Source: a bacterium
Lineage (GTDB): Bacteria > Vulcanimicrobiota > Vulcanimicrobiia > Vulcanimicrobiales > Vulcanimicrobiaceae
DNA length: 64,000 nucleotides
Assembly: GCA_021805775.1 (NCBI GenBank)
Contig: JAJZED010000001.1
Coordinates: forward strand, 155,800 to 219,799
Reading direction: 5' to 3'
Positions 37,116-45,391 of this stretch are shown in pieces. The position numbers and the translations under genes are program-made. Numbering within the stretch: position 1 is the stretch's first letter; each line of letters begins with the position of its first letter. The notes beneath the pieces were generated by a model. The model was given only the letters and a program-made list of their open reading frames with translations. It did no database searches and had not been told where the DNA came from.

Positions 37116-37670
37116 CTAGTTTTCGGTCTTCGCGTCACCGCGCGGCAGCGAAAAAGCGATGAGCGCGTTGATCGGTGCGAGCCCGCGGCTCACCACCGCG
37201 TAGGGCGTCACCTGTAAGCCGAGCGCTTCGAGCCGCGCCTTTGCGGCGATCAACTCGGTTGCATTGGTGATGACGTCCTCCAACAACAGCGCGTGCTGCC
37301 CCGGTGCGTAAGCGCCTTCGACGTACTCATCGGGGAAGGCGCCGTACCCTTTGGGTTGTTTGCGGACGGCAAGCATCGGCAGTCCGGTGAGCTGGGAGAC
37401 TGCCGTTGCGATGACGACGCCGCCGAGTTCGGTGCCGCCGATGACATCGGGGCGCAAGTGCGCGATAACGGGAGTGAAGAGCCGCGCGATGCGGCGCAGC
37501 ACGACCGGGTCGCTAAAGAGGCGGAACTTGTCGATGTAATAATCGCTGCGCACGCCGCCCGAGAGTTGGTAATCCCCTCGGGTCAGCGCGCGTTCGACGA
37601 TGATCTTGCGCAACCAGGCGATATCGCCCGGCGGCACGACCGATTCGCCGGGATGCCCTAAATGCTCCAT
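37116..37670 (-). CDS. pyrE: Orotate phosphoribosyltransferase
   Basis: 184 residues from the ATG at 37670. The type I PRTase pattern is present: GGVRSDYYIDKFRLFSDP, VIGGTELGGVVIATAV, MLAVRKQPKGYG and the PRPP loop ALLLEDVITNATELI. The loop is altered from the usual 'VDDVITAGT'-type: the Gly of T-x-G-T is Ala. It starts inside the end of the SBP gene (13-base overlap; a second in-frame ATG two codons earlier is possible). pyrE is isolated from other pyrimidine genes. Confidence 0.85.
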   Translation of the reverse strand: MEHLGHPGESVVPPGDIAWLRKIIVERALTRGDYQLSGGVRSDYYIDKFRLFSDPVVLRRIARLFTPVIAHLRPDVIGGTELGGVVIATAVSQLTGLPMLAVRKQPKGYGAFPDEYVEGAYAPGQHALLLEDVITNATELIAAKARLEALGLQVTPYAVVSRGLAPINALIAFSLPRGDAKTEN

Positions 37671-39283
37671 TGCCATGCGTTCCAGCTTTCGACCACATGA
37701 TTGGGGGCGAAGCCCTTGAACGAAGTGCTGATCGGTTCCATCTGGCGTTCGTAGTAGAGGTAAATAATCGGTACGTCGGTTGCCAGGAGTTGCTGGATCT
37801 TCGCGTAGGCTTTCTTCCGCGTCGCGCGATCGTAGGAAGTGAGGGCGATTTTTTGCAGCGCCTCCATCTGCGGATTGCAGTAGCGTGAGTAGTTGTATCC
37901 CATCGGTGCAACGTTCGCACAGGTCGTCTGCGTCGAATCGTCGGGGTCGATACCGGCATACCACCCGGCTAAGGCGAGATCGAATTTCCCGCCCTGGAGG
38001 ATGCCGCCAACGCTGGCCGGCGCGAAAAGGACGTCCCCGGCGAAGTATTTCACCTGGACTTTAATGCCGACTTTGCGCAGCATCGCTTGGATGATGACGC
38101 TCTTCTTGACGCGCGTTGCATTGGAGTTATCGGTGACGAGAACGAGTTCGAGTTGCTGCCCGTTCTTGACGCGGATGCCGCCCGGGCCGACCTTCCAACC
38201 GGCGGCGTCGAGCAGCGCGCGTGCCTTTGCCGGGTCGTAAGAGATCGCTTTCACGTGAGGATCGTACGACCACATAAAGGGTGGCGTATCGGAGAGTGCC
38301 TTCTGCTCTTGCCCGAAGGTGAGCGTGTCGATGATGCGTTGCTTGTCGATCGCGGCAGCGACGGCTTGCCGGACGCGCAGGCTCTTCAGGAACGGGCGCT
38401 GCGTGTTGACGTAGATGCCCGAGAAGCCGTTCGCGCTCATCCAGCGGATATCGATCCCCGGAATCGTTTTGATGACCGGATAATTGCTGATCGAGGCCTG
38501 GAACATCCAGTCGATATTGTGCGTGCGCAGCAAATTGATCGTCGTATTTTCGTCGGGAATAATACGAATGGTGATTTTCTTTAACTTCGGCTTGCCGAGA
38601 AAAAAGTTATCGTTGCGCAGCAAGGTAATATGATCGCCGTGGACCCATTCGGCGAACCGGAAGGGCCCGTCGCTCACGGTCGGCTCGCTGTTGAACGGAA
38701 CGGTATTAATGTTGGGGTATTGAGCGAGCACGTGTGCCGGGGCGATGAAATACGGTTGATCGCTATTGGTGAAGAAGGTATCGACAAAGGGTGCGAACGG
38801 TTTCTTGAGATGTACGACGACCGTGTAGGGGTTGGGGGTAGCGATCGAAGCGATATCGGTATATCCGTGACGCGAGATCACGTCGTTGTTGGGGTTCATA
38901 ATCGCTTTCCAGGAAAAAACGACGTCGGCTGCAGTAACCGGTTTCCCGTCGGTCCACTTGGCGTCGGTGCGCAAGTGATAGGTTATCGTCAACCCGTGGT
39001 CGGTGATGCCGCCGTTATGCAGCGTCGGTACGGCCGACGCGAGCATCGGTTGCATTTTGCCCTTGGAATCGGGAACGATGAGCGGTTCGAACATCAGCGC
39101 ATCGACTAACACGTCGGTGGTATTGGAATTGAGAAGCGGGTTGAGGTTCTTGACGTCGCTTTGAACCGCTATGCGCAGGTGCCCGGGCTCGACGCCGGCG
39201 CCGACGGCGTTCTGCGATCCCGATTTCGAGCAGGCAACGACGAGAGTAAGGAGCAGCGCTCCCGAGAGCAAGCGTTTCAACAA
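37658..39283 (-). CDS. Peptide/oligopeptide ABC transporter substrate-binding lipoprotein
   Basis: A 541-residue family 5 extracellular solute-binding protein. A lipoprotein signal ends in VVAC at Cys18. The start is a TTG at 39283, supported by GGAGG eight bases upstream. Typical segments: LNPLLNSNTTDVLV, YHLRTDAKWTDGKPVTAADVVFSW, and GVEL-like closing region with RKKAYAKIQQLLATDVPIIYLYYERQ. No permease or ATPase genes are adjacent, so it may serve an orphan or distant transporter. Confidence 0.88.
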   Translation of the reverse strand: MLKRLLSGALLLTLVVACSKSGSQNAVGAGVEPGHLRIAVQSDVKNLNPLLNSNTTDVLVDALMFEPLIVPDSKGKMQPMLASAVPTLHNGGITDHGLTITYHLRTDAKWTDGKPVTAADVVFSWKAIMNPNNDVISRHGYTDIASIATPNPYTVVVHLKKPFAPFVDTFFTNSDQPYFIAPAHVLAQYPNINTVPFNSEPTVSDGPFRFAEWVHGDHITLLRNDNFFLGKPKLKKITIRIIPDENTTINLLRTHNIDWMFQASISNYPVIKTIPGIDIRWMSANGFSGIYVNTQRPFLKSLRVRQAVAAAIDKQRIIDTLTFGQEQKALSDTPPFMWSYDPHVKAISYDPAKARALLDAAGWKVGPGGIRVKNGQQLELVLVTDNSNATRVKKSVIIQAMLRKVGIKVQVKYFAGDVLFAPASVGGILQGGKFDLALAGWYAGIDPDDSTQTTCANVAPMGYNYSRYCNPQMEALQKIALTSYDRATRKKAYAKIQQLLATDVPIIYLYYERQMEPISTSFKGFAPNHVVESWNAWQWSI

Positions 39284-39329
39284 CGGCGGATCCTCCGAGT
39301 GTAAGGCGATAAATGGCTGACGAAGGCGA

Positions 39330-41324
39330 TTAGGTGGTGGTACCGGCGGGAACGCGCCCAGGAGGCGCCGGGTCGTACCGTTCGTGACTCCATCGATAGG
39401 TTCCCAACCCCTGGGTGGCGGTGCGCAGTTCGGTAATATAGCGGGCGAGCTCGACGAGCGGAACGTCGGCTTCGACGATCTCGCGCCCCTCGCGGTCGCT
39501 TGGTTTCATTCCGAGAATCTGCCCGCGTTTCGCGGTAAGCTGCCCGATGACCGTTGCGGTAAAGTGCGCGGGAATCGTCACTTCGACGCGAGCGATCGGT
39601 TCGAGGATAACCGGCTTGCACTTCGGCAACGCTTCGCGGACCGCCATGCTCGCGGCGGTGCGAAAGGACTGCTCGCTCGAATCGACATCGTGATACTGCC
39701 CGTCGAAGAGCGTTACGTGCAGATCGGTGACCGGATAACCGCTGCTCCCGCGGGCGAGCGCTTCGCGTACGCCCTTCTCGACGGCGGGAATGAATTGCTT
39801 GGGAACGACGCCGCCGACGATCTCGTCGTCGAAGAGCAGCCCGCTGCCGCGCGGACGCGGTCGAAAACGAATATGCACGTCGGCAAACTGTCCGTGCCCG
39901 CCGGTCTGATGCTTGTAGCGTGAATGAATTTCGGTTCCCGCAGAGATCGTCTCGAGATAGGGCACCGCCGGCGGCGCAACGTCGATCTCCACCCGGTGCT
40001 TGCGGGCGAGGCGTTCGACTGCGATGCCGACGTGCTGCTCTCCGCAGCCCAGGAGCAGTTGCTCGCCGGTAAATTGAGCGCGCGCGAGTTGGAGCGAGGG
40101 GTCTTCCTCTATGATCCGCGCGAGCATCTGCGATATCTTGGCTTCGTCGATGCGTTCCTTCGGCTTGATGGCGACCGCGAAGACCGGAGGCGAGAACTCG
40201 ATCGGCGGTAGCGGTTTTACCGTTGGGGCGCCGGCGAGCGTCGTGCCGGTCGTTACCCCTTCGAGCCGCGCGATGGCGACGATGCTACCCGGCCCGGCGC
40301 TACTTAACGGTTCGCTTTTCTTCCCGAAGAGCCGATAGAGCCCACCGACGCGGATCCGTTCGCCGGTGCGTAGATCGGTAATGGTCGCATCGCCGGTCAG
40401 CGTGCCGTCGTGAATGCGCGCGACGGAGAGTTTGCCCGATTGCGGGTGAACGATCGTCTTGATGACCTGCGCGCGCAGCGGGGCCTGCGCGTCGCCGACC
40501 GGTGCCGGAAACCAGCGCTCGATCGCTCGGAGCAGCGCGGCGACGCCGTACCCGTGAATGCCGGCAGCGACGAGTACCGGGACGATTTGGTCGTGCGAGC
40601 ATTCGTCGCAGAGATTGCGATCGATCTCGTCGGCCTGCGGTTCGACATCGTCGAGGAGCTCTTGCATGAGCGCATCGTCGAAATCGGCCATCGCTTCGAG
40701 AAGCGTTCGGCGAGCTTGGCGAGCGGGGAGTTCGAGCGCAGGTTCGATCGCCTCGGCGCGTTCGCCATCGGCGGAGAAGCGAGCGGCCTGCATCGTGGCG
40801 AGGTCGATATAGCCGACGAGCGTATCGTCGCGGCTGATCGGCAGTTGCTCGGCAACGAGGTGACGCCCGTAGAGACGCTGCAATTCGGCGAGCGTTGCAT
40901 CGAACTCGGCGCCGGGCCGATCGAGCTTGTCGATGACCACGATATGCGGCAAACGAAGGCGTTCGATCTCCTCAACGAGCGCATGCGTGAGTGCGATGCG
41001 CGACGGGTCGGCTTCGACGACGATGACGGCGGCATCGACGCCGCGCAGTGCGGCGCGCGTCTCTTCGAAGAAATCGATGAAGCCGGGCGTGTCGACGAGA
41101 TTGATCTCGATCGCATCGTGCGTCGCACGTGCGAAACCGACGCAGGTCGATTGTGCGTGGGCGATATCTTCGGGCTCGCTATCGGTCGTCGTCGACCCGT
41201 CGCTTACCGAACCTCGTCGCGCGACCGCTCCGCATGCGTACAACAACGCTTCGAGCAACGTCGTCTTGCCCGAATGATGGGGGCCGACGAATGCGACGTT
41301 GCGAATGCGCGGATGTTCGGACAT
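39330..41324 (-). CDS. Elongation factor G-like GTPase
   Basis: A 664-residue EF-G-type translational GTPase. G1 is GPHHSGKTT, G3 is VDTPGF, and G4 reads IDKLDRPG where EF-G normally has NKMD, so the guanine-recognition Asn is Asp. Later domains have the EF-G order: domain II (LRAQVIKTIVHPQSG), III (MLARIIEEDPSLQLA), IV (GGVVPKQFIPAVEKGVREAL) and V (EPIARVEVTIPAHF). It is about 35 residues shorter than classical EF-G and resembles EF-G paralogues of unknown role. A Shine-Dalgarno AAGGAGGG precedes the ATG. It is not with rpsL/rpsG/tuf, so it is probably not the housekeeping EF-G. Confidence 0.85.
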   Translation of the reverse strand: MSEHPRIRNVAFVGPHHSGKTTLLEALLYACGAVARRGSVSDGSTTTDSEPEDIAHAQSTCVGFARATHDAIEINLVDTPGFIDFFEETRAALRGVDAAVIVVEADPSRIALTHALVEEIERLRLPHIVVIDKLDRPGAEFDATLAELQRLYGRHLVAEQLPISRDDTLVGYIDLATMQAARFSADGERAEAIEPALELPARQARRTLLEAMADFDDALMQELLDDVEPQADEIDRNLCDECSHDQIVPVLVAAGIHGYGVAALLRAIERWFPAPVGDAQAPLRAQVIKTIVHPQSGKLSVARIHDGTLTGDATITDLRTGERIRVGGLYRLFGKKSEPLSSAGPGSIVAIARLEGVTTGTTLAGAPTVKPLPPIEFSPPVFAVAIKPKERIDEAKISQMLARIIEEDPSLQLARAQFTGEQLLLGCGEQHVGIAVERLARKHRVEIDVAPPAVPYLETISAGTEIHSRYKHQTGGHGQFADVHIRFRPRPRGSGLLFDDEIVGGVVPKQFIPAVEKGVREALARGSSGYPVTDLHVTLFDGQYHDVDSSEQSFRTAASMAVREALPKCKPVILEPIARVEVTIPAHFTATVIGQLTAKRGQILGMKPSDREGREIVEADVPLVELARYITELRTATQGLGTYRWSHERYDPAPPGRVPAGTTT

Positions 41325-41346
41325 GAGAGCCCTCCTTGCGCCGAAT

Positions 41347-43161
41347 CTACCGGCGTTTTGACTTTTTCGCCGTGGCGGTTTTCTTTACGACGGTTTTTTT
41401 CGCGATCGCCTTCGCGACCGGGCGCGCGGCGGCTTTCTTTGCGACGGGTTTCGCCGGTGCGGTCTTCTTCGCCGGAGCGGTTTTCTTTACCGGAGCGGCT
41501 TTCTTCGCCGGAGCGGCTTTCTTCGCCGGAGCGGCTTTCTTCGCCGGAGCGGCTTTCGCCGAAGCGGCTTTCGCCGGAGCGACTTTTTTCGCCGGAGCGG
41601 CTTTCGCCGGAGCGACTTTTTTCGCCGGAGCGGCTTTCGCCGGAGCGGCTTTCTTTACCGGAGCGGCTTTCTTCGCCGGAGCGGCTTTCGCCGCGGGCTT
41701 CGCTGCCGCGGTTTTCGCCGCGGGCTTCGCTGCCGCGGTTTTCGCCGCGGGCTTCGCTGCCGCGGTTTTCTTTACCACGGGAGCAACTTTTTTCACCGCA
41801 GGTTTCGCGGCGGGCTTTGCCGCCGGTTTCGTTGCGGGGGCTTTCGGTTGGGGCGGCGGCGCGCTCTTCTCTTTCGGCGCATCCTTTGCAGGCTTGGCCG
41901 GTGCGGTGCGCTTCGGCGAGCTTCTCGCGCCGCGCGCTGTCTCCGGCGATCCCTCGCTCGGCGATTTTGTCGCGCGTTCCGGCGAGCCGGCGCGCCGTTT
42001 CGAACCGACGTCGCGTACGCTGCGCGCGCGCTGTTCTGCGAGTCGACGCTCTTCCTCTTCGTCGATCTCGGGCAGGCCGAGTTCGGCACGGCTGAATCCG
42101 GCGATGCTCGTGCCGGGCTGCGGAATGTCCACACGCTTTGCGCGCTCGATATGCTCGCGGCTCGCGCGCAACGCGACCTTCGCTAAACGTCCGGCGATCG
42201 GGAAGACGACTTCGTTGATATCGAGATCGCGGAGAATGTCGGCGATCAGCTCGAAGCCGTTTCCTTGATCCTTCGGGCTATGGGCATCGGAGCCGATCGC
42301 GACGGCAACCCCTGCCGCCGAGGCTTTTCGCATCAGCCGGGTGTACGCCGCGAGCATTAAATCCCGCTGCTCGGGTGCGACGCCTTCGCGATAGAGAAAA
42401 CGAACGTTGATCTCGACGGCGATGCCGCGTTCTTTGCAAATCTCCAGGAGCCGATCTTCGTAGCGCTCGAGGTTTGCAGTTTCGGGCCACGCACCGAAGG
42501 TCGCCGCGACGTAGAAATGCCCGACGATATGGGTCGGCAGCGTCGCAATATCTTCGAAGAGGCGTTGCGTGTAGAGCTCCCAGAGCCGCTCCGCCCCGAC
42601 CGATTCGAGCAGATGGGCAAACTCGGGGTTATCGAAGGGCCAGAGCCAGTCCGCGCCTTTTTCGGGATGTTCGATCGGAACGAAATGAATCGAGCGTACG
42701 ATCCCATCGGGGCGCATCGCGTCGATGATGTTGGCGACATCGGGGCGCGAACGCGGGTCGTTATCGACCTCGGCACCGATGGAGAAACGCATGCCGCGGC
42801 GCAGTGCCTCGGAGACGATCGTCGCGTGCGCGACATCGACGACGGCGGTCTCGGCGGCACCGTAAACATCGCCGGCGAGTGCGAGCTTGAGCGCGCGACG
42901 AACCGTGTTGATTGCGCCGGGATCTTCGAAGGTGAGGAAGTTGACGTGGTCGCTCACCATGAGAAAGCGCGGCGAGCCGCGTCGACAGGCATGATAGAAC
43001 CACAGAAAAAGCATGCGCGCGCTATACGGCAACGGACGCTCTTCGGAAAATGCACGGTGTTCGCCCTTCGCGTGCCCGTGTACGTCGGGAATTGCAGCGA
43101 TGGCGAGCTGCTTCTCTGTGTCTTTCAGCGTTCTGCTTCCTTCACTCCGCGAGGTATCCAC
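41347..43161 (-). CDS. PHP-domain phosphoesterase with histone H1-like Ala/Lys-rich tail
   Basis: About 600 residues in two unlike halves. The N-terminal ~370 residues form a PHP domain (PDVHGHAKGEHRAF, MVSDHVNFLTF, IGAEVDNDPRSR, IVGHFYVAATFG, AVAIGSDAHSPKDQG) of the histidinol-phosphatase/polymerase type. From about residue 390 the chain becomes a low-complexity tail of AAPAKKAAPAK-like repeats ending KKTATAKKSKRR, as in H1-like bacterial proteins that bind DNA. The start is uncertain: no ATG lies between the pcp stop and the first motif; I give the GTG at 43161, and a CTG within the pcp stop region is another possibility. It overlaps pcp by 37 bases. Confidence 0.75.
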   Translation of the reverse strand: MDTSRSEGSRTLKDTEKQLAIAAIPDVHGHAKGEHRAFSEERPLPYSARMLFLWFYHACRRGSPRFLMVSDHVNFLTFEDPGAINTVRRALKLALAGDVYGAAETAVVDVAHATIVSEALRRGMRFSIGAEVDNDPRSRPDVANIIDAMRPDGIVRSIHFVPIEHPEKGADWLWPFDNPEFAHLLESVGAERLWELYTQRLFEDIATLPTHIVGHFYVAATFGAWPETANLERYEDRLLEICKERGIAVEINVRFLYREGVAPEQRDLMLAAYTRLMRKASAAGVAVAIGSDAHSPKDQGNGFELIADILRDLDINEVVFPIAGRLAKVALRASREHIERAKRVDIPQPGTSIAGFSRAELGLPEIDEEEERRLAEQRARSVRDVGSKRRAGSPERATKSPSEGSPETARGARSSPKRTAPAKPAKDAPKEKSAPPPQPKAPATKPAAKPAAKPAVKKVAPVVKKTAAAKPAAKTAAAKPAAKTAAAKPAAKAAPAKKAAPVKKAAPAKAAPAKKVAPAKAAPAKKVAPAKAASAKAAPAKKAAPAKKAAPAKKAAPVKKTAPAKKTAPAKPVAKKAAARPVAKAIAKKTVVKKTATAKKSKRR

Positions 43162-43835
43162 ATGCGCGAGGTGCGCTCGCGTGGCTGTGCGGCGCTCTCC
43201 GCACCGCGGTTTTCGACCCACGGCACGATGCATTCAATAATTTGTTCGACGCCTTTTTTCATGAGTTCGAAGGTCATCGAGGGATGGGTCTCCGGGCCGG
43301 CGGCGATCGCCTGAGCCGGGAGAAACGGGAGATGGACGAGGCCGACGAGCACGGGAGGTGTCGCCGTCTCGGTGAGCGCGAGTAGTTCGTAGAGCGACTG
43401 GTTGCAGATAAACGTGCCCGCGGAATTCGACACGTATCCCGGTACGCCGATCTCCGCCCACGCCGCGACGATTTTCTCAAACGGGAGATTGGAGAGCCGG
43501 GCATCGGGGCCGCCGCGCACGATCGGCTCGTTCTTGCGCAGGACGCCGACGTTGTCGGGGATATCGAAGTCGAGGACGTTGACCGCGACGCGCTCGAGTG
43601 CGAGGGCGCTGCGCCCGCCCGCCTGCCCCAACAGCAAAACGATCTCGGGCTCTTCTTCGAGGCGGAGCAGTTCGAGACGGTCGTGGAGCGAGCGCGTCTC
43701 CACCGGAAGAATCGCAACGGAGATCGGACGCCCCGCGATGAGGCGGCCGTCGAGGCTGCGCGCGACCAACTCGCTTGGGTTAACTTTCTCACCGCCAAAG
43801 GGCTCGAAGCCCGTGACGAGCACGCGATTGCTCAC
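43125..43835 (-). CDS. pcp: Pyroglutamyl-peptidase I
   Basis: A C15 cysteine peptidase that removes N-terminal pyroglutamate. VLVTGFEPFGGEKVNPSE at the N-terminus is diagnostic; the catalytic Glu lies in the NVLDFDIPDNVG region, the catalytic Cys in SNSAGTFICNQSLYEL, and the His in LVGLVHLPFLP. 236 residues is slightly longer than usual because of a C-terminal tail (~20 residues, RERTSRMWIPRG). Confidence 0.93.
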   Translation of the reverse strand: MSNRVLVTGFEPFGGEKVNPSELVARSLDGRLIAGRPISVAILPVETRSLHDRLELLRLEEEPEIVLLLGQAGGRSALALERVAVNVLDFDIPDNVGVLRKNEPIVRGGPDARLSNLPFEKIVAAWAEIGVPGYVSNSAGTFICNQSLYELLALTETATPPVLVGLVHLPFLPAQAIAAGPETHPSMTFELMKKGVEQIIECIVPWVENRGAESAAQPRERTSRMWIPRGVKEAER

Positions 43836-43893: not shown

Positions 43894-44634
43894 TTAGTGT
43901 ACCGGGTGGTAGCCTTCCATTGCGAGCAGGCGAGCCTTGAGTTCGACACCGTAACCGTAGTGATGGAGTGCGCCGGTCGCGTCGACCACGCGATGGCACG
44001 GCACCAGAATCGGAATCGGGTTGCGTGCCATCACGCGCCCGACGGCTCGCGCGGCGCTCGGGCGGCCGATCTGTTTGGCGAGCCATCCGTACGAGCGTAC
44101 CTCGCCCGGCGGGATCTCGACGGTCGCGCGGAGCGTCGCCTGTTCGAACGGCGTGAGATCGCTGATATCGACCGACGACGCATCGACCTGCCAGGTGGTG
44201 AAGAACGTCGCAATGATCGCGCGCAGCGAGGGCGGTAACTCGGCGCGGTCAACGGGGCGGCGGAGGCGGCGTTCTACCCGCGCGGCGACATCTTCGTAGG
44301 GCTCCCCCAGATCGATGCCGACGTAGGCGATTCGCGATTCGCGGTGACCGATGTAGAGGCGGCCGATCGGCGAATCGACGAGCACGAGATGGATGGGGTC
44401 GAGGCGTTCGCGGCGTTGTAAGAGCGCGATATGCTCGACGACCTTTCGCGCGAGATCGCAGGTCGGTTCGGGGTTGGGAAGCGACTCGAGTTTGTGCGCG
44501 AGCACTTCGTACTGCCGGTAGGATTCGTTGCAGGTTGGGCAGGCATCGACGTGGATGTGCACCGCTTCGTGGAGCGTCGCCGTCCCGTCTCCACGGACCT
44601 CATCCCACATCGCGTCGACATCACGACAGCGCAT
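43894..44634 (-). CDS. ZAS anti-sigma domain fused to O6-alkylguanine-DNA alkyltransferase
   Basis: A two-domain protein of 246 residues. Residues 1-60 contain a zinc-binding anti-sigma (ZAS) motif, His28-x3-Cys32-x2-Cys35 (HIHVDACPTC), as in ZAS-family anti-sigma factors. Residues ~80-246 form a complete MGMT/Ogt domain: SPIGRLYIGHRE, TPFEQATLRATVEIPPGEVRS, the DNA-binding SAARAVGRVMARNP and the active-site ILVPCHRVV. The gene overlaps the end of an ECF sigma factor gene by 14 bases, so the pair is co-translated. The likely role is to tie sigma activity to alkylation damage. Direct sensing by the alkyl acceptor cysteine is inference. Confidence 0.9.
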   Translation of the reverse strand: MRCRDVDAMWDEVRGDGTATLHEAVHIHVDACPTCNESYRQYEVLAHKLESLPNPEPTCDLARKVVEHIALLQRRERLDPIHLVLVDSPIGRLYIGHRESRIAYVGIDLGEPYEDVAARVERRLRRPVDRAELPPSLRAIIATFFTTWQVDASSVDISDLTPFEQATLRATVEIPPGEVRSYGWLAKQIGRPSAARAVGRVMARNPIPILVPCHRVVDATGALHHYGYGVELKARLLAMEGYHPVH

Positions 44635-45304
44635 CGCTCAACTCCTCATCGGTATCCTTGACCAAACGGCCCAATTGCGGGCCGAGTATCTTGCGGAGAA
44701 TACGCACCGCACGATGGACGTGCGATTTCACGGTGCCGATCGGTTGGCCGAGGATCTCCGCGATCTCGGGGTGGCTGCGCCCATCGATAAAGCGCAGGGT
44801 CGCGGCTGCGCGGAGATGGGTCGGCAGCGAGAGCAACGCCCGCTCCACCATCGCCACTTCATCGTTGCGCTCCACGACGGTCTCCGGCTGAACCGGCCGG
44901 TCGCCGACGTCGCGCAGTAAGGCATCGGGATCGGCGAGTGCGTCGATTGCAACGCTTGGGGGCTTCTTGCTGCGCAGGCGATTGCGCGTAACGTTGAGCG
45001 CGATGGTGTAGAGCCATGGCTGCAACCGAAGATCGCGCCGCTGCTCTTCGCCCATCTTCCCAAGCGCACGAAAAGCCCGCACGAAGGCATCCTGGACGAT
45101 CTCCTCGGCATCTTCACGGTTGCCCGTCATGCGGAGGGCGAAACCGTAAAGACGACGTTGATAATCGCCGACGATGCGATCGAAGGTCGACGTGCTCGGG
45201 ATAAATGCCGACGCCGCTGCAGGCGAGCCATCGCCCGCGATACGCGCCCTCCCGACCGCAGGTAGCAACGGAATCTCCCTCATCGGCGGCGCGTAGGCGA
45301 TCAT
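44621..45304 (-). CDS. ECF sigma factor partner of the anti-sigma-MGMT fusion
   Basis: A 227-residue extracytoplasmic-function-type sigma factor. Region 2 is at about 45-115 (RRLYGFALRMTGNREDAEEIVQDAFVRAF then QPWLYTIALNVTRN), region 4 at about 160-210 (ALLSLPTHLRAAATLRFIDG then IAEILGQPIGTVKSHVHRAVRIL). A ~35-residue disordered extension precedes region 2; a later start is possible. The co-translated ZAS-MGMT protein downstream is its expected antagonist. Promoter and autoregulation were not identified. Confidence 0.9.
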   Translation of the reverse strand: MIAYAPPMREIPLLPAVGRARIAGDGSPAAASAFIPSTSTFDRIVGDYQRRLYGFALRMTGNREDAEEIVQDAFVRAFRALGKMGEEQRRDLRLQPWLYTIALNVTRNRLRSKKPPSVAIDALADPDALLRDVGDRPVQPETVVERNDEVAMVERALLSLPTHLRAAATLRFIDGRSHPEIAEILGQPIGTVKSHVHRAVRILRKILGPQLGRLVKDTDEELSDALS

Positions 45305-45391
45305 ATGATCTCCCCAACCGCCGCGGCCCGGAGGACGGTTTCACGGCGAGCGCTCCGGTTTCCCGCGTTGAGGGATTTTCGAACGCGCGCG

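Follow-up and report, generated by a model that had tools for sequence, protein, structure and literature searches.

Sigma/anti-sigma pairs are known that respond to redox state, singlet oxygen and envelope stress. ZAS anti-sigma factors are recognised by a HisX3CysX2Cys motif, a fourth ligand (Cys or His) 23-26 residues before it, and a gene downstream of that for an ECF sigma factor (PMC4960319). The zinc ligands of RsiW, the partner of SigW in Bacillus subtilis, are C3, H30, C34 and C37 (PMC5358783). In the ChrR/RpoE pair of Rhodobacter sphaeroides the ZAS domain is followed by an extra C-terminal domain, a cupin that serves as the stress sensor, and the way in which added domains of this sort disrupt the complex with the sigma factor is described as unknown (PMC4960319). 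Alkyltransferases have been tied to transcription in two other settings. Ada of Escherichia coli, an autoregulated activator, joins an MGMT to C4 phosphotriester-sensing and AraC-type DNA-binding domains. For the ECF122 group, described as having no anti-sigma factor, a review names 6-O-methylguanine DNA methyltransferases among the conserved neighbours, with an example from Cellulomonas (PMC8999054).

The window analysed here is a stretch of 64,000 nucleotides from a bacterium of the Vulcanimicrobiaceae (assembly GCA_021805775.1, contig JAJZED010000001.1, positions 155,800 to 219,799 of the forward strand). It contains an ECF/ZAS pair, a type of pair already known; what is new is that the C-terminal domain of the ZAS protein is an MGMT. 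This observation is real and conserved, and the ZAS-MGMT form is undescribed so far as the literature searched shows, no paper joining anti-sigma factors with alkyltransferases having been found there.

The sigma factor gene and the ZAS-MGMT fusion gene

Both genes lie on the minus strand. The upstream one (44621..45304) encodes a 227-residue sigma factor matching Sigma70_r2 (2e-15) and Sigma70_r4_2 (9.6e-14), and hence having regions 2 and 4 only, the composition of an ECF sigma factor. The fusion gene (43894..44634) encodes 246 residues plus stop and overlaps the sigma gene by 14 bases (44621..44634, minus strand), suggesting translational coupling. The overlap is again 14 bases in most of 37 homologous loci and 11 in four, and in three it is absent or replaced by a short gap. 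The neighbours within the window include genes for a pyroglutamyl peptidase, an EF-G-like protein and a solute-binding protein, none of them a repair gene. Window positions 37661-43233 hold the solute-binding protein gene, the EF-G-like gene and a gene for a Pfam-less protein with a Lys/Ala/Pro-rich tail, and these three are kept downstream on the same strand in 48-65 of 70 loci.

The ZAS domain occupies residues 1-78 (44401..44634, minus strand). Its H28-x3-C32-x2-C35 motif (codons at 44551-44553, 44539-44541 and 44530-44532) is completed by C3 (44626-44628), 25 positions ahead of H28, giving the same CHCC ligand set as RsiW. All four ligands are invariant in 75 of 75 distinct full-length homologues. 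Compared with the PDB, the family profile matched RsiW best (3.5e-5), across the zinc site and the following helices, and also RslA (0.018; PDB 3hug, titled a membrane protein in its record, which we take to be RslA of M. tuberculosis), and the profile of the sigma family correspondingly found RsiW's partner SigW as its best match (5wuq_A, 6e-29). Taken singly, the window protein is a weak ZAS match, with an E value of 0.042 against the RsrA model and 14 bits against the cut-off of 62.5 for the RsrA equivalog TIGR03988; Pfam zf-HC2 was matched by 19/35 members of the fusion family. Judged from sequence, the N-terminus belongs with the CHCC anti-sigma zinc sites of RsiW and RsrA and not with the C4 Ada N-domain, and its homologies point to putative zinc binding and sigma inhibition. 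Where RsiW is membrane-bound and freed by proteolysis, the fusion has an MGMT as its C-terminal part; ChrR resembles it in carrying an extra C-terminal domain, although there an HHCC site is combined with a cupin for singlet oxygen, and here a CHCC site with an MGMT. The predicted structure of the ZAS half is of low confidence (pLDDT about 45-66) and places a short linker, residues ~74-80, between the last ZAS helix and the first MGMT strand. Most of the fusion family has extra cysteines at 48, 51 and 59, of which C48 and C51 have been lost in the window genus.

The MGMT domain, with both halves of the fold, spans residues 79-246 (43897..44400, minus strand). It matched PF01035 at E 4.7e-30 (103.7 bits, cut-off 27) and TIGR00589 ogt at 96.1 (cut-off 46.4), and the alignment to Ada-C (1sfe) runs from 78 to 242 of the profile (E 2e-24). 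The predicted fold, mostly at pLDDT about 90 in this part, matched M. tuberculosis OGT and Ada-C 1sfe in Foldseek. The catalytic C213 lies in the sequence PCHRVV (codon 43996-43998, minus strand); P212-C213-H214-R215, Y182, N205 and E240 are invariant in the 75 proteins, and R196 is found in 74. The MGMT half is, by its residues, catalytically complete, and alkyl transfer itself is predicted. A second MGMT-family gene in the same genome, a minus-strand open reading frame of 165 aa (L002, G000:C11), reads PAHRV, with Ala for the catalytic Cys. Alkyltransferase-like proteins have Ala at this position, and the homologue is probably one of them. Within the 96%-complete assembly the fusion is therefore alone among MGMTs in having a catalytic Cys, and looks like the sole working MGMT there. 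Neither an Ada_Zn_binding (C4) domain nor a PF09859 oxygenase was found in the window genome by genome-wide search, which covered these two only, and no link of the ZAS form to alkB, alkA or aidB was found outside that search.

Conservation was followed in two sets of loci, which were pooled to give the 75 proteins. A search of 60 relatives turned up homologues of full length in two of the order's families; 37 were extracted, each of them (37/37) directly downstream of the same sigma gene on the same strand. When 84,980 species genomes were scanned with a pattern from the ZAS part, 70 loci were recovered; the sigma gene directly precedes the fusion at 68, and the remaining two have no more than about 100 bases of contig upstream. 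These loci carry the titles Candidatus Eremiobacterota (or Eremiobacteria, Vulcanimicrobiota) or unspecified bacterium, except for two titled Rhodospirillales and one titled UBP12. The two Rhodospirillales contigs (L095, L104) match genomes of the window's own family and are probably mislabelled. By our own count, the ZAS profile scores better than 1e-25 in 94 genomes of two families belonging to one order, whereas the best E values from elsewhere in the phylum are about 1e-8. The fusion is thus carried by about 94 genomes of one order of soil bacteria in Candidatus Eremiobacterota. It was found nowhere else: the phylum scan gave none outside these two families, chromosomes of other phyla were covered by the single pattern scan, which is blind to diverged fusions, and none of 72,556 plasmid records had a place covering 80% of the query. 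A chance fusion is argued against by the 75 homologues, which keep CHCC and PC213HR without exception, and the pairing with the sigma gene, kept at 37/37 and 68/70 loci, is far beyond chance.

An earlier note, made from the letters of this DNA, had proposed an ECF sigma gene overlapping by 14 bases a gene with an H28/C32/C35 zinc motif and a complete MGMT with PCHRVV, and had suggested looking for such fusions beside ECF sigma genes in other genomes. The open reading frames and their overlap were as described, the sigma/ZAS pairing is borne out by domain matches and by adjacency across the loci counted above, and the MGMT by its domain scores, fold match and invariant active site. The motif was also correct, although the fourth ligand, C3, had been overlooked.

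A promoter-like element and the search for targets

Upstream of the sigma gene lies the ECF-type promoter-like element GTGAAAC-N18-GGTT (45316..45344, minus strand), whose 3' end is 11 bases short of the sigma ATG. It is the single match to this sequence within the window. Of 76 upstream regions, 64 contain an equivalent, against a mean of 0.74 and a maximum of 3 after shuffling; the regions come from related genomes and are therefore not independent. The second element usually lies 9-12 bases ahead of the ATG. In both families the motif is kept while the sequence between and around its elements varies. Its resemblance to ECF promoters, and its position just upstream of the sigma factor's own gene, suggest that the operon is autoregulated.

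Further targets were sought with the patterns TGAAACYN{16,18}GGTY in 9 genomes, GTGAAACN{17,19}GTY in 3 and GTGAAACCN{15,18}GTY in 10. Contexts were read for all own-genome matches of the first, for selected other matches of the first and second, and for those of the third that repeated earlier ones. Most of the matches read were inside genes. The exceptions were one at groES that overlaps CIRCE and a TTGCAC..TAATAT promoter; one at the gene for an S8 protease, where the -10 is of CGTC type; one across the start of a transporter-like gene; and two that were intergenic, with no gene at promoter distance. The protease element, GTGAAAC-N-CGTC, is ECF-type promoter-like, lies nine bases before the gene (L191 2595-2622, G000:C7) and recurs in L192 and L193, so that it is conserved in three genomes of the genus. 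The three pattern searches, which are blind to diverged promoters, revealed no second reproducible target in up to ten genomes. The wider alkylation-repair regulon envisaged in the earlier note was accordingly not found, the motif recurring reproducibly only before the sigma operon.

A possible mechanism and its alternatives

The reading that we favour, at about even chances, is of an autoregulated sigma factor held by a cytosolic CHCC ZAS partner that MGMT alkylation uses up, freeing the sigma factor to remake the fusion. At rest, by homology, the ZAS half would keep the sigma factor inactive. The MGMT half would take an alkyl group irreversibly on C213, or would then be destabilised and degraded, as spent alkyltransferases are, and the altered protein would lose its hold on the sigma factor; release of this kind is plausible. 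Free sigma factor would fire the promoter upstream of its own gene, making more sigma factor and more ZAS-MGMT until unalkylated protein again outnumbered it. Replacement of a single-use repair enzyme would in this way keep pace with its use, and the sigma factor would act mainly on its own operon. Members of the MGMT family are consumed stoichiometrically, and since each can be used only once, using it up could itself trigger making more. This property, together with a fusion that is apparently the only working MGMT and with an operon that is the only target found, is the strongest argument for a stricter proposal, to which we give somewhat less than an even chance: a homeostat that counts itself, in which each alkylated MGMT frees one sigma factor that chiefly transcribes the replacement operon. 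Such a system would be distinct from the Ada activator. Both join an MGMT to a transcription-control domain and, apparently, both are autoregulated, but the fusion would act by inhibiting a sigma factor and has no Ada zinc domain. If true, the anti-sigma factor would be a single-use DNA-repair enzyme, and transcription would be coupled directly to the number of repairs carried out. The MGMT would also provide a covalent, well-studied trigger with which to probe how the extra domains of ZAS proteins act; pseudosubstrates such as O6-benzylguanine exist.

The low confidence of the predicted ZAS half and the lack of repair genes among the window neighbours speak against the favoured reading. The fused MGMT could instead be a passenger, merely co-expressed, and the input might be oxidation, since CHCC ZAS proteins can be redox sensors, as RsrA is. 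It is possible, if rather doubtful, that the CHCC site is opened under disulfide or metal stress so that the sigma factor is released, with the MGMT simply an effector supplied by the operon. The ligands are those of RsrA, CHCC proteins can sense disulfide stress (PMC4960319), and many homologues have the further cysteines at 48, 51 and 59; the first two of these are, however, absent from the window genus, and the window protein scores 14 against the RsrA cut-off of 62.5. The redox determinants of RsrA on either side of its zinc cysteines, E40 and L45 (PMC5358783), are also unmatched, the fusion having A31, and N or Q at 36, and the nearest PDB match, RsiW, does not respond to oxidation although it too is CHCC (PMC5358783). 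The operon's own promoter as the only one found, and the conserved synteny around the locus, would equally suit constitutive negative feedback, in which ZAS-MGMT sets a steady MGMT level through the autoregulated promoter and no stress-dependent release takes place. We consider this distinctly unlikely, as the inhibition would be lifted by any loss of activity or breakdown of alkylated MGMT; for that reason it merges with the favoured reading of alkylation-driven release, unless spent protein still binds the sigma factor.

Two further explanations concern the N-terminal half. The earlier note had offered, beside alkylation of the MGMT, methylation of the ZAS cysteines as the switch. Zinc-bound cysteines are nucleophilic, and N-Ada works by such methylation in the repair of methylphosphotriesters; the domain here, however, is of the CHCC RsiW/RsrA kind and not a C4 Ada N-domain. 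This candidate was rejected, and is very improbable, on the grounds that the genome has no Ada_Zn_binding match, that the ZAS domain is related to RsiW and RslA, and that true Ada zinc domains sit in the sister module described below and in canonical Ada proteins. That the N-terminal region has ceased to be an anti-sigma domain and become a DNA- or protein-binding zinc finger for the MGMT would fit the low similarity of the single window protein to ZAS models, but is scarcely credible given an invariant full CHCC set, linkage to one sigma gene wherever the contig extends far enough, and an RsiW profile match over the zinc site and the helices that follow.

A sister module and the ECF122 group

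Several genomes of the order carry a sister module, in which a related sigma gene is followed by one for a protein that lacks the CHCC motif and has a short N-terminus, an MGMT and, at the C-terminus, an Ada zinc domain. Its loci, from Eremiobacterota and Actinomycetota, include L230 2451-3822, L238 2587-3910, L239 1460-2841, L278 1576-2944 and L281 2998-4400, and similar pairs of sigma factor and MGMT-Ada occur in Nonomuraea, Rubrobacter and Streptomyces. The true Ada zinc domain in this module, within the same and other bacteria, supports the analogy with Ada that had been drawn from the window. An oxygenase of PF09859, a family whose Pfam name refers to damaged DNA, lies close to the module in G038 (L230), G014 (L239), G012 (L232) and probably G040 (L236), and near canonical Ada genes in G119, G101, G021, G028 and G100.

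The sigma factors of the two modules are sisters in the tree (99/96; 100/98 with Actinomycetota added), with the ZAS form as one clade; the MGMT trees agree weakly with those of the sigma factors, and the actinobacterial placements are unsure because of long branches. The actinobacterial loci fit the description of ECF122, and the sister module, set beside that group by description, probably belongs to it. An MGMT gene in the neighbourhood is common to the window locus and the Actinomycetota sister loci, but the window form departs from the description of ECF122 in having a full ZAS domain. The fusion thus bears on the link between MGMT and ECF sigma factors that was noted, without explanation, for ECF122. 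In an alignment judged by eye, the sister proteins seem to have retained a segment resembling the final anti-sigma helix found in the ZAS form.
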